Part shown: piece by piece, positions 981 to 4,160 of the stretch
Layout of the letters: each line of letters starts with the position of its first letter
Position numbering within the stretch: the first letter of the stretch is position 1
IMG/VR virus record: IMGVR_UViG_3300007735_000504
Coordinates: 1 to 23,360 of that record
Length of the DNA: 23,360 nt
Source: a virus
Reading direction: 5' to 3' (one strand)
Translations under genes and position numbers: made by a program
Notes under the pieces: generated by a model
What the model saw: the letters and a program-made list of their open reading frames with translations, nothing else
What the model was told of the DNA's origin: nothing
The model's database searches: none

Positions 981-1846
981 TCCCACCCCTCAATCAAGTG
1001 AGAGAACTCGCCTGTTATTTGCTTGTACTTTTTGCTGTCAACCAAAACAAGCGTCACTAGCGGGTGGTATTTCTTCATTCTCTTGAGCTTGGTCTTGCTT
1101 CTATCATCCATCCAGCCCTTGACCTCATGGTATTCCTCGGAGCCATCCGGTTTCAGCACCCAGAAATCAGGCAGATAGCTAACGCAGCCCCTCTTGATGC
1201 CTTCGAACCAAAAAGTCCTTGGCTCATGCTTCCAGTCAGTGATGGCGCTGTTGTTTTTTTGCCACTCAAGAAACCTGGCGTAATTTGCTTCCCATCGCGA
1301 ACGGTAAAACTTTTCCTCTGTCCCAATCGTTCGCCAACCACCCTTCCATGTGGTCTTGATGCGTGGATTAACCAGTGTTCCGTTCTTGGCCTTTGTCTCA
1401 AGCATCTTTTTTAATTTTTCAAACTTTTTATCTTCAGACATTTCAGCAAATCTTTTCTTTGAAATATCTGAAAACCTTGCTTTCGTTTCAGCAGAATGCT
1501 TTTTGCCAAGCATCCCTCTTGGATGAGGATTTTCCTTGAGACGCTTTTTAGCTTTTTCTGAAATTGCTGCTTTTTGCGCTTCAGTCTTTTTTAGCTTTCC
1601 ATCCTCATGCAACTTCTTGATGACCAACGCTTGATCTGGCCTCTTTTTGCCAACTTTGCTTTGCGCGGCCCTGGCTTGCCAATCCTTGAAGAACTCAGAT
1701 TCCGTGTTTGCTTTGAGTCCAAGCTCTGCGGCCATCCATCGAACGGATGCCTCGCCTCGACCAAGTGCATTAGCGCACCACATCTTCCCCTTATCGGGAT
1801 AGTTGTTTTTTAGCAACACCAGTTCTTCATCAGTCCATTTTTTCAT
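977..1846 (-). CDS. Putative PD-(D/E)XK endonuclease with NUMOD3-like region, homing-endonuclease-like (289 aa)
   Basis: Residues 3-45 (WTDEELVLLKNNYPDKG onward) look like a SANT/Myb-type or HTH DNA-binding module. Residues about 60-135 are Lys-rich and contain a NUMOD3-like segment, NPHPRGMLGKKHSAETKARF, typical of the DNA-binding spacers of phage homing endonucleases. The C-terminal third carries a likely PD-(D/E)XK fold: SRWEANYARFLEW with Glu186, YLPDF with Asp227, and HEVKG with Glu241 and Lys243. There is no strong Shine-Dalgarno before the start at 1846; translation may depend on reinitiation. It is flanked by small genes with no terminator, as expected for an inserted mobile nuclease. 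It could instead be a resolvase-like or recombination nuclease. Confidence 0.75.
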   Translation of the reverse strand: MKKWTDEELVLLKNNYPDKGKMWCANALGRGEASVRWMAAELGLKANTESEFFKDWQARAAQSKVGKKRPDQALVIKKLHEDGKLKKTEAQKAAISEKAKKRLKENPHPRGMLGKKHSAETKARFSDISKKRFAEMSEDKKFEKLKKMLETKAKNGTLVNPRIKTTWKGGWRTIGTEEKFYRSRWEANYARFLEWQKNNSAITDWKHEPRTFWFEGIKRGCVSYLPDFWVLKPDGSEEYHEVKGWMDDRSKTKLKRMKKYHPLVTLVLVDSKKYKQITGEFSHLIEGWE

Positions 1847-1864
1847 CAGGCCATGTTATCAGAA

Positions 1865-2053
1865 TCAGCCGACATTGACAACATTCTTGCGAAGCTCATT
1901 CATTTTTCTCCGTAACTGCTCGGCTGAATCTTTGCCCCGTTTCTTTTCGATACTAGATATTGTTCGGCCCCACCACCCAGCAGCGGCTTCGAGTCCTTTG
2001 GTGGCTTTCATGTCGTTGAAGATTCGGATGTAATGTCGCGCCTCGCATTCCAT
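1865..2053 (-). CDS. Small basic hypothetical protein (62 aa)
   Basis: The protein begins MECEARHYIRIFNDMKATKG and continues with AAAGWWGRTISSIEKKRGKD and a basic C-terminus. The ...ARHYIR...IEKKRGK... layout resembles small phage proteins of unknown function. The start at 2053 is chosen because GGAG lies 6 nt upstream. It overlaps the 3' part of the 68-aa gene in another frame by about 100 nt, so one member of the pair may be shorter than drawn. Probably co-transcribed with the methyltransferase locus upstream and the endonuclease downstream. Confidence 0.65.
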   Translation of the reverse strand: MECEARHYIRIFNDMKATKGLEAAAGWWGRTISSIEKKRGKDSAEQLRRKMNELRKNVVNVG

Positions 2054-2159
2054 CCTCCAGGTCTCCTGTGAGATAGAGGGCGTGTGAGATGAGTTCTGTG
2101 GAGTGGTCGATTCCATCTTTGACCTCATTCAGAAGTTTGTGGGCTTCAAAGTAGTTCAC
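1953..2159 (-). CDS. Small hypothetical protein (68 aa), GTG start
   Basis: The N-terminal half, MNYFEAHKLLNEVKDG...ELISHALYLTGDL, has the look of a small phage protein with a short helical repeat ending in LxxTGDL. The second half (after about residue 36) overlaps the 62-aa gene and looks less protein-like (Arg/His-rich), so the functional part may be only the N-terminus. The start is a GTG at 2159 with GGAG 8 nt upstream, overlapping the end of the 424-codon frame by 14 nt. Function unknown. Confidence 0.6.
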   Translation of the reverse strand: MNYFEAHKLLNEVKDGIDHSTELISHALYLTGDLEDGMRGATLHPNLQRHESHQRTRSRCWVVGPNNI

Positions 2160-3420
2160 TTAATTCTCTCCATGCGGTTGCTGCACATAAGGGGACTTGT
2201 CCGTTTCCAATGGCTTTAAGTCTGTCCACCCTAGCGGTTACGCCAGATGCGACTCTTGGGATGATCTGCGTTTCATCCATGCCAGTTTGTTTCCACACTC
2301 CCTGCTGCAGGTCTTTTCTCTGGCTCGTTTGTAAGTGAATATCTTCCCGCAATACAGACACTTTCGGTCTTTCGTGTGATCCTTCCATCTCTGATTGGCA
2401 TGAAGCGACCCGTGACACTTGCTGCAAAGAACCATCAAGTTCTTGCTCTGGTTGTTCGTTGGATCGTTGTCCAGATGGTGCCTGTGAAGGGTCTCTGTCC
2501 CACCACATCGTTCGCACGAGACGAGATTTTTGTAAAGCCGCTGCGCTTGCTTCCTGCCAGCGTTGAAAGTCTTTTTGGTTGATTGCATTGAGATTGCTCC
2601 AGGTGATAGGCCAATTCATCAACCATTCTACCCAATCAGGGTTCAGGGTTCCACCAATCGCACTGGACAGGGGTGGCGAATGCCCCTCTCTGGGTTGTGC
2701 GCCAGTCCCGCTCTTGTAGTCCCGCCTGGTCGGAGTTGGGAACCTGACCGCATCCACCAATTGAACTTGCTTCCCAGGTCTTGGCCTGCCACTGCTTCCC
2801 CTGCTGCCCGATGCTATTGGAGTGGGCCATTTCGCCACTTGAGTTGCCAACCCATCCCCGCTCGTCTTGCTTGCACCCTTGCGGTTGTGGTTGCCGCATA
2901 CGGTTGGAGTGGCCCACAAGCCAGAATCTATCCCTTTGGTGCGGCGCTCCGACATCGGCAGCTCCCATAACAGTCCACCTCGTGTCATACCCGAGCGCGG
3001 CAAGGTCTGCAATGACTCGGGTTCCTCCTCTAGAAGTGAGCATTGGGCTGTTCTCCACAAAGACGAATCGGGGTCTAACTTCGCCAACCACCCGCGCCAT
3101 GTGTTTCCACATTCCGCTTCGCTCGCCATCAAGCCCATCTCCTTTTCCTGCGACTGAGATGTCCTGACAGGGAAAGCCTCCCGATACAACATCAACAATT
3201 CCTCTCCACGGTCTTCCGTCAAAGGTTTGAATGTCATCCCAAATCGGGAAAGGCGGGAGAAGGCCGTCATTTTGTCGGGCGGCAAGTACGCAAGCTGCGT
3301 ATGGCTCCCACTCAACTGCACAGACGGTTTGCCATCCGAGGAGCTTTCCTCCAAGGATTCCACCTCCTGCTCCCGCGAAGAGTGCAAGCTCTCGTAAAGG
3401 GCTTTTGAAATCAACCACAT
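2146..3420 (-). CDS. Overlapping-frame methyltransferase-associated protein (424 aa) carrying C5-MTase motif X
   Basis: This 424-codon frame covers the whole methyltransferase gene in the +1 frame and continues past it. It starts at an ATG sharing one base with the stop of the DUF1376 gene (TAATG), with GAGG 5 nt upstream. Several segments recall a widespread phage family: FGMTFKPLTEDRGEELL (61-76), three W/F-x-TP units (LWATPT near 168-173, KWPTPI near 197-202, RFPTPT near 226-231), CGNHNRKGASKTSGDGLAT (175-193) and LNPDWVEWLMNWPITW (259-274). The C-terminus, RVDRLKAIGNGQVPLCAATAW (about 397-417), matches motif X of cytosine-5 methyltransferases, which the MTase frame lacks. It may be a separate subunit, the downstream half of a frameshift fusion, or partly a shadow of the MTase frame. 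I consider it coding at least from about 2640 to 2146. Confidence 0.65.
   Translation of the reverse strand: MWLISKALYESLHSSREQEVESLEESSSDGKPSVQLSGSHTQLAYLPPDKMTAFSRLSRFGMTFKPLTEDRGEELLMLYREAFPVRTSQSQEKEMGLMASEAECGNTWRGWLAKLDPDSSLWRTAQCSLLEEEPESLQTLPRSGMTRGGLLWELPMSERRTKGIDSGLWATPTVCGNHNRKGASKTSGDGLATQVAKWPTPIASGSRGSSGRPRPGKQVQLVDAVRFPTPTRRDYKSGTGAQPREGHSPPLSSAIGGTLNPDWVEWLMNWPITWSNLNAINQKDFQRWQEASAAALQKSRLVRTMWWDRDPSQAPSGQRSNEQPEQELDGSLQQVSRVASCQSEMEGSHERPKVSVLREDIHLQTSQRKDLQQGVWKQTGMDETQIIPRVASGVTARVDRLKAIGNGQVPLCAATAWRELSELL
2238..2588 (-). CDS. HNH endonuclease with second zinc finger (116 aa), nested inside the methyltransferase locus
   Basis: Residues 25-59 form a textbook HNH/zinc module: Cys25-x2-Cys28, HRHH at 35-38, then DPTNN, and LCSKCH with Cys55, Cys58 and His59. 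A second zinc-binding element follows: Cys77-x2-Cys80, KIFTYKRAREKTC with Cys94, and Cys98. This pattern is common at the C-terminus of phage HNH proteins. It has its own GGAG 8 nt before the ATG at 2588. It lies wholly within the 424-codon frame but in a different register, so the same DNA encodes two recognisable products. It may be a homing-type nuclease that colonised the MTase gene, or a nuclease working with the methyltransferase. Coding is very likely. Confidence 0.85.
   Translation of the reverse strand: MQSTKKTFNAGRKQAQRLYKNLVSCERCGGTETLHRHHLDNDPTNNQSKNLMVLCSKCHGSLHANQRWKDHTKDRKCLYCGKIFTYKRAREKTCSRECGNKLAWMKRRSSQESHLA
2636..2641 (-). other. Candidate programmed +1 ribosomal frameshift site CCC-UGA
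   Basis: The methyltransferase frame ends GAA-CCC-TGA. Moving the proline tRNA from CCC to the overlapping CCU gives a +1 shift, and reading continues GAT-TGG-GTA (DWVEW). This restores the WWxxEPD junction usual for this kind of methyltransferase and leads in frame to motif X. Proline CCC-U followed by a stop is the documented +1 site of Listeria phage PSA structural genes. The fusion product would be 423 aa. I have not identified an upstream stimulator sequence. Confidence 0.55.
2636..3418 (-). CDS. DNA cytosine-5 methyltransferase, catalytic part (260 aa, motifs I-VIII)
   Basis: C5-cytosine methyltransferase motifs appear in order: motif I FAGAGGG (14-20), the acidic residue of motif II at Glu36 (CAVEWEPY), motif IV GGFPCQ with catalytic Cys84, motif VI ENS at 122-124, and motif VIII QRDRFWLVG (161-169). 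A variable region with three A/V-H/N-S-N/D units follows (near 170-235), where target recognition is expected. The frame ends WWNPEP at a CCC-UGA stop without motifs IX-X, which lie in the +1 frame. The start is taken as the GTG at 3418 with GAGG 7 nt upstream; an ATG for the other frame is two bases earlier. The enzyme would methylate phage DNA, probably against host restriction. Alone it looks incomplete: it needs a +1 shift or a partner subunit. Confidence 0.88.
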   Translation of the reverse strand: MVDFKSPLRELALFAGAGGGILGGKLLGWQTVCAVEWEPYAACVLAARQNDGLLPPFPIWDDIQTFDGRPWRGIVDVVSGGFPCQDISVAGKGDGLDGERSGMWKHMARVVGEVRPRFVFVENSPMLTSRGGTRVIADLAALGYDTRWTVMGAADVGAPHQRDRFWLVGHSNRMRQPQPQGCKQDERGWVGNSSGEMAHSNSIGQQGKQWQAKTWEASSIGGCGQVPNSDQAGLQERDWRTTQRGAFATPVQCDWWNPEP

Positions 3421-4160
3421 TAGCGCCTCAAGATGCTTTGGATTTGCTGACGAACCTCAAGCGGGATCTGCTCTCGCTTCTTGCGGTCCTCGTCCAACTT
3501 GACCAGCGCAGGATCTCGCTCAGGACGGCTTGGGACGGTGAGCTGAGTTTGCGGCTTGAAATTTTGGTTCTTTTGGCTACGAACCCAGTTTCGCCAGGTC
3601 GCATCCCAGTCCAACTTCACGCCTGCCTGCCCCGGTTTGGCGATCCAGTAGTCCCTGAAGCTCTCGAACACTTCTCGAGGCACAAGGTCTGGCCGCTTCT
3701 CTTTGCAGAAGTTGGCCCACTCAGGAGGAAATGGATAAAGGGGGTCAAGGCGCGTTCCGCGCACAACCTTTGGTTTATGGTTATTGGTTTCTGGTTCTTG
3801 GTTTATGGTTAGCTTTCCAGTCGGTTGCGACTCGGAACCCACTGGGTTTTGTTTGGGCCTTCCACCTCTAGAACCATTGGAGCGATTGCGCTCTGCAAGG
3901 GCCTGATACTTGGCGATTTCTTTGTCGCACCGCTCGTTTCGATAGCCGTCTTCGGTCCGCTCAAACATGTCGTTGAGCACATCTCGAACGATGCTGCCAT
4001 CCACTCGTATCCGCCTGGAAACCCACTCGGTATCGAGCGGGATTTGACCCTCAAGGTCATAGTACATGTCAAGAAGACGCCTGTAGGCCAAATCTTCTTC
4101 GTTTGTCAGATGGGCGGTTGAGGACCGATAGTCCCCAATGTGGAACTGGTAGTAGTGCAT
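3420..4160 (-). CDS. DUF1376 replication-type protein (246 aa)
   Basis: The N-terminus, MHYYQFHIGDYRSSTAHLT...EEDLAYRRLLDMYYDLEGQIP, is diagnostic of DUF1376, a family found at the position of replication initiators in many phages. After residue about 100 comes a basic linker (RNRSNGSRGGRPKQ) and a low-complexity stretch (LTINQEPETNNHKPK). The C-terminal part has FPPEWANFCKEKRPDL and LDWDATWRNWVRS, as in phage replication proteins that recruit a helicase loader. The start at 4160 is chosen over an in-frame one at 4193 because AGGGG lies just upstream and MHYYQF is the family start. Its stop overlaps the next ATG as TAATG. It carries an iteron-like array within its coding sequence, similar in layout to lambda O with its origin. 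Confidence 0.85.
   Translation of the reverse strand: MHYYQFHIGDYRSSTAHLTNEEDLAYRRLLDMYYDLEGQIPLDTEWVSRRIRVDGSIVRDVLNDMFERTEDGYRNERCDKEIAKYQALAERNRSNGSRGGRPKQNPVGSESQPTGKLTINQEPETNNHKPKVVRGTRLDPLYPFPPEWANFCKEKRPDLVPREVFESFRDYWIAKPGQAGVKLDWDATWRNWVRSQKNQNFKPQTQLTVPSRPERDPALVKLDEDRKKREQIPLEVRQQIQSILRR
3771..3812. repeat. Six tandem 7-bp units TGGTTNN (candidate replication iterons)
   Basis: The plus strand reads TGGTTTA, TGGTTAT, TGGTTTC, TGGTTCT, TGGTTTA, TGGTTAG without any interruption: six head-to-tail heptamers, also readable as three 14-mers. The array lies inside the DUF1376 gene and encodes its NQEPETNN linker. The 7-bp period is out of phase with codons, so the constraint looks DNA-level rather than protein-level. 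Iterons inside an initiator gene mark the phage lambda origin; here that role is inferred. Slippage in a low-complexity linker is the alternative. Confidence 0.8.

Follow-up and report, generated by a model that had tools for sequence, protein, structure and literature searches.

A putative two-chain phage C5-cytosine methyltransferase encoded in overlapping frames, with an HNH nuclease gene nested in the second

Three overlapping reading frames on the minus strand of IMG/VR virus record IMGVR_UViG_3300007735_000504 (positions 1 to 23,360; this 23,360-nt stretch is referred to as the window, and all coordinates are positions in it) probably encode a heterodimeric phage C5-cytosine DNA methyltransferase, together with an HNH nuclease whose gene is nested in that of the β subunit. 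A probability of about 0.8 is given to this sequence-based reading, under which the two chains would be translated, dimerize and methylate DNA. Frame A (α; 3418-2636, 260 aa from a GTG at 3418, with the C-terminus ...CDWWNPEP) would be the catalytic, S-adenosylmethionine-binding domain with motifs I-VIII. Frame B (β; 3420-2146, 424 aa from an ATG at 3420) lies in the +1 frame relative to A and starts nearly at the α ribosome site; it would carry the variable DNA-recognition part, motif IX and, here, motif X. Frame C (2588-2238, 116 aa from an ATG at 2588), in the +1 frame relative to B, is the HNH gene and has a GGAG Shine-Dalgarno sequence of its own upstream of its ATG, inside B (2600-2597). 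The enzyme probably methylates phage DNA as protection against host restriction.

Along B, an N-terminal part over the A core is followed by a TP-repeat region (2916-2728), the putative target-recognition part, then by a motif-IX-like block LNPDWVEWLMNWPITWSNL (2646-2590), a linker over the HNH gene, and motif X, RVDRLKAIGNGQVP (2232-2191). The initial annotation, made from the letters alone, had given the coordinates of all three frames exactly, and the blocks that it listed in B were all located: DRGEELL at 3213-3193, CGNHNRKG...DGLAT at 2898-2842, LNPDWVEWLMNWP at 2646-2590, motif X, and three W/F-x-TP units at 2916, 2829 and 2742.

Family matches were obtained for all three frames. Frame A matches PF00145 (E 2.4e-32, aa 11-175) and phrog_363 (1e-60), and it has the FPCQ nucleophile and ENS among the motifs I-VIII of a C5-cytosine methyltransferase; it stops short of motif X, which is found in B. 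Frame C matches the phrog_1271 HNH endonucleases (3.6e-10), with an HNH profile and zinc-binding cysteines, and scores 18.6 bits against Pfam HNH, under the 21.4-bit cut-off. Frame B matches phrog_1008 (6e-25), as do all 90 B relatives, and also holds the C-terminal, motif-X part of phrog_363; no Pfam family matched it, and its profile found nothing significant among PDB sequences. B is read as a complementary piece of the enzyme, not as a second full methyltransferase.

The comparison covers about 150 relatives on metagenomic contigs. A search with B yielded 79 viral loci and 5 genome loci, and a search with the A profile only, unbiased for B, yielded 80 further viral loci. Two arrangements are found. 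In type I (124 loci), A carries motifs I-VIII plus X, and B consists of the TP repeats and the motif-IX-like block, right after which it ends. Type II has 24 members, the window among them; 21 give an HNH match, and in this type X is absent from A and lies in frame B. An AlphaFold2 model of a type I A homologue shares 184 aligned residues with M.HhaI (Z 21.2, root-mean-square deviation 2.5, spanning residues 1 to 273), and its middle (residues 181-257) has a predicted local distance difference test score (pLDDT) below 50; on this alignment, type I A is modeled as the large domain including X, without a recognizable small domain.

That B is a gene is supported by the stop codons that it lacks. 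Position 1 of a B codon is position 2 of an A codon, B position 2 is A position 3, and B position 3 is A position 1. Synonymous shuffling of A codons gives the number of stops to be expected in B; these shuffles do not model phylogeny, and controls from the same contigs are flat (2761 stops seen and 2721 expected in 233 neighboring open reading frames). For the window A, 3.5 B stops are predicted and none is seen. No interior B stop occurs in 77 of the 80 viral loci found with A, where about 5-6 per locus are expected, and across 67 non-redundant loci of that search the +1 frame has 18 stops, some of which precede the start of B, versus 300 expected, as against 917 versus 807 in the +2 frame. 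The long-range overprinting proposed in the initial annotation is in this respect confirmed by stop depletion across relatives, with chance excluded.

Fourfold-degenerate sites of invariant A residues are, in addition, fixed according to the needs of B. Among 118 non-redundant loci, G143 is GGG in 116 of 118, G28 is GGA in 105 of 114, P125 is CCA in 104 of 114 and V75 is GTT in 102 of 109, while another invariant A glycine is GGT in 90 of 111. At column 140 a B proline is 99% conserved, while A there is 73% alanine. The third-position rate of the A core is low (468 per 3285 codons versus 652 per 2015 in neighboring genes, although mosaicism could affect this comparison). Amino acid identity in close pairs (0.836 for B versus 0.816 for the third frame) gives no separation by itself over the A core, and the argument there is therefore drawn from the stops, the fourfold sites and the third-position rate. 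Over A, B is a genuine overlapping gene, constrained beyond what A explains.

The two frames also share a start region (3429-3416), with a GAGG ribosome site at 3429-3426. The TAA stop of an upstream DUF1376 gene (3422-3420) overlaps the ATG of B (TAATG), and the GTG of A lies two bases inside that ATG, so that the single GAGG could serve both frames. The common start context in relatives is NTGAATGAG, in which the A start may be ATG, TTG or GTG and the B start is always ATG; the asparagine codon of A at the B start is AAT in 124 of 124 loci and never AAC.

A and B might instead be joined in one chain by programmed +1 frameshifting or transcript slippage and not be separately started subunits. 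In favor of this, B is +1 relative to A, G10-G15 runs occur in a sub-clade exactly at the junction of motif VIII and the recognition region, in all phases, and in some loci motifs I-VIII are fused in frame to IX. A frameshift product, however, would need neither a B that is open and constrained in its amino acids across the whole A core nor an invariant ATG for it, and the window has no such G run; joining of this kind is considered improbable.

Downstream of motif VIII the roles of the two frames diverge. Between VIII and X, 52% of the changes in 20 close pairs fall at B position 3, and identity is 0.818 for B versus 0.638 for A, which indicates that the variable region is encoded in B and that A only passes through. 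Over the VIII-IX stretch, 93 type I loci have 2 A-frame stops, against 367 expected from shuffles of B codons, and 16 type II loci have 26, against 72.5 expected. Depletion that is strong in type I and weaker in type II implies that A is held open as far as X and is relaxed after X has moved. Both frames are constrained over the A core, and in VIII-IX B is the main coding frame with A passive. The earlier impression that each frame looks conserved holds for A and B over the core; it fails in VIII-IX, where A is passive, and over the HNH gene, where B residues are neutral.

The origin of the arrangement in the window can be read from comparison with a close relative. Relative to L009, a type I locus with 81% amino acid identity in A, the window differs by one clean insertion of 373 nt (2608-2236, edges uncertain by about 10 nt; by blastn, L009 aligns in two blocks, to nt 694-812 and nt 1176-1272 of B). 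The HNH gene makes up 351 of these 373 nt and, since 373 is 1 mod 3, X falls in frame B. The DNA common to IX and X is present twice. In the copy before the HNH gene, IX is kept in B and the A reading has decayed to LGRMVDELAYHLEQS, a relic of the old motif-X leader past the A stop (2635-2591) that overlaps motif IX of B and resembles, as read from the sequence, GRVADELAxRxDRL of type I relatives; in the copy after it, X is kept. Remains of the duplicate are also present behind the HNH gene in L010 and L033, in the HNH frame (WTDLKPLEMDKF or WTDLKP-like text), and in L039 (LLMGWPIGHTALRP). Three HNH sequence groups occupy one conserved site, and L014 has lost most of its HNH gene with frame B intact to X. 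Insertion, duplication and the move of X are, at the level of sequence comparison, what these loci display. The initial annotation had suggested that an HNH gene entered a methyltransferase gene without breaking it: the clean insertion bears out the entry, A was nevertheless cut off from motif X, and the duplicated X, by coming to lie in frame B, appears to have rescued the enzyme.

Across the HNH gene, frame B is kept open while its residues change freely. Synonymous shuffles of the window HNH gene predict 5.5 B stops and none is seen; in 18 loci from the three HNH groups, 1 B stop is seen versus 98.5 expected, and the third frame has 91 versus 72. Changes in this overlap among 10 type II loci fall at HNH third positions, with identities of 0.758 for HNH and 0.506 for both B and the third frame, so that B shows no amino acid conservation there. 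The B residues over the HNH gene drift neutrally and the open frame is kept by selection; B must accordingly be read through the HNH gene to reach X. L039 is a mirror image, with HNH in the frame of B, X on A, and A open through the HNH gene. From the open B of type II and the open A of L039 it follows that the chain bearing X must be readable through HNH.

The insertion could, on the other hand, have destroyed the methyltransferase in the lineage of the window, with only the HNH gene still under selection. The A frame without motif X ends early, and A stops accumulate in type II, as this idea would have it. The parts of B that encode IX and X outside other genes nonetheless change mainly at B third positions in 10 type II loci (B identity 0.77 and 0.74, other frames 0.54-0.66), and B has been kept open through three different HNH families, which makes loss of the enzyme unlikely.

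The heterodimer reading is thus preferred, and within it the following course is proposed. In the ancestor, IX would have been on β and X on α, with the same nucleotides coding both. A mobile HNH gene would have entered just behind the motif-IX codons with duplication of the common segment, so that one copy would now serve IX and the other X, both on β. Translation of the β chain would continue across the HNH gene, which would supply it with a neutral linker, and the nuclease would be made from its own site. That the insertion with its duplication resolved an ancestral overprint by moving an essential catalytic motif between subunits, leaving the subunit that bears X to be read through the nuclease and three overlapping products in 1.3 kb, is held with somewhat better than even confidence. 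A similar degree of belief attaches to the proposal that L039 solved the same insertion in the opposite way, by reading α through HNH.

We infer the recognition role of B and its motif IX from position, B-phase selection (seen among type II loci in both the motif-IX-like block and motif X), the LNPxWVEWLMGWPxGW pattern, and the loci L105 and L109, in which the IX block follows motifs I-VIII in one frame, as it does in a single-chain enzyme. Several observations weigh against the heterodimer reading. The motif-IX assignment is by position and pattern, without a profile match. An AlphaFold2 model of B alone (from 90 homologues) has a mean pLDDT of 57, with no Foldseek/VIA/PDB match at E below 1, and no claim is therefore made on the fold of B. 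Relaxation of A in type II is incomplete, since several of these loci keep it open almost as far as IX. L023 (type II) and L129 (type I) each have one in-frame B stop. Single in-frame A stops occur in L142 and L148, in pairs that are otherwise intact; all four lone stops may be sequencing errors, recoding or early decay.

It is also very unlikely that B goes untranslated and is just a shadow cast by the conserved methyltransferase and HNH frames. Many B blocks do sit exactly over conserved A motifs: AFPVRTS lies over GFPCQDIS, WRTAQCSLL over VENSPMLTS and, in relatives, LNPxWVEWLMGWP over EPxxGRVAxGxxxRVDRLKALGNGQVP. Because of this coincidence a recognizable block is no proof in itself, and codon-level tests are required; B residues are, moreover, neutral over HNH. 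Against a shadow stand the stop depletion with its calibrated controls, the invariant B ATG, the position-specific fixation of fourfold sites, and B-phase substitution, which is seen in the VIII-X stretch as well as in the B-only parts of IX and X. The same codon-level tests ruled out an early idea in which the whole B family would echo methyltransferase motifs as a systematic +1 shadow. The initial annotation had named neutral change in B over A or C as the mark of a shadow; such change is absent over A, and over the HNH gene it affects the residues while stops are excluded.

Hardly credible, finally, is an HNH gene in a self-splicing intron whose removal restores I-VIII plus X in frame A: HNH genes often lie within phage introns, and joining ...WWNPEP to ...RVASGV would look like a type I A, but the idea was dropped after an Rfam search of 1800-3600 gave no intron match at E up to 1, the insert is nearly all HNH with a duplication for flanks, and an open frame B would be needless under splicing.

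M.EcoHK31I (YGGCCR), a C5-methyltransferase of two polypeptides, has its small subunit encoded in another frame inside the large-subunit gene. Two split plans are known: M.EcoHK31I has motifs I-VIII and X on the large subunit and IX alone on the small, and M.AquI has I-VIII on the large chain and IX-X on the small (PMC3404938). Type I relatives fit the motif split of M.EcoHK31I, but their B spans the full length of A and contains the constrained variable region, whereas in M.EcoHK31I it is the large subunit that is credited with the predicted recognition domain. The window departs from that plan in that X is on B, within which an HNH gene is also nested. Its motif content (I-VIII on A, IX-X on B, with IX by pattern and position only) is that of M.AquI; the difference is that its β overlaps all of α and that the AquI-like split would have come from HNH insertion into an overlapped ancestor. 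Frame C resembles phrog_1271 and free-standing homing nucleases in being a zinc-finger HNH protein of about 116 aa at a conserved gene site, and differs in lying inside a live overlapping gene whose frame is read through, with no intron or intein detected.

In Streptomyces phages Euratis and Samy the A and B genes are almost adjacent and X is on B, an arrangement of the AquI kind, and in Paenibacillus phage Tadhana both frames of a nested pair are annotated (TADHANA_54/55); the split is therefore already known in annotation. No paper on full-length overlap, dual selection or HNH-driven transfer of X was found in the literature searched, which was mostly without subscription papers. These three are what is added here. 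Same-strand long overlaps with dual selection have rarely been demonstrated in prokaryotes and their viruses; the present family is a set of many natural replicates, some with swapped frames, in which the rules of overprinting are directly testable, and a concrete route from an EcoHK31I-like to an AquI-like split. In most phage records examined, annotation is limited to a single frame, which is A for Acinetobacter phage ABMM1 and for Leptospira p2 and B for phPA-G, so that half of the enzyme has been overlooked. In Pseudomonas phage phPA-G (L174, 1442-2170) frame B is labeled "hypothetical protein" and the methyltransferase frame A is unannotated. The family further suggests that many phage C5-methyltransferases have their sequence-recognition part encoded in a frame without annotation.

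Downstream of the methyltransferase, positions 977-1846 of the window (minus strand) encode a DUF1064 protein that matches the phage Holliday-junction resolvase family phrog_190 (9e-21). Among distant phage methyltransferases, those of phiGT1 (L166), HB10c2 (L167) and Nodularia phage 2AV2 (L172) have a shorter +1 open frame with TP units, about 200-240 codons long and starting inside A. In phiGT1 and HB10c2 this frame has an MGFP-like block, and in the Nodularia phage only a weak WIMG; the A/B overlap may extend far more widely than the present clade. In L098, a shift just before motif IX joins A in frame to WVEWLMGWPIGW and leaves X in the third frame.

About 30 viral contigs (L119, L105, L109, L137 and L179-L211) have a run of 10-15 G precisely where motif VIII gives way to the recognition region. 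The length of the run sets which frames are joined (I-VIII plus X, with B plus IX; I-VIII plus IX; or B plus X), and all downstream frames are open in every phase. Near-identical flanks can have unequal runs: L109 and L185, with 100% identical flanks, have 14 and 12 G, and others have 11-14 at 97-98%. The run looks like a phase-variable methyltransferase switch, with assembly error in G runs as an alternative. Long G runs also occur elsewhere in the gene, at A codon 90 (G10, L024 and L055), codon 82 (G11, L127 and L132), codon 244 (G10, L019 and L020) and codon 15 (G9, L130).
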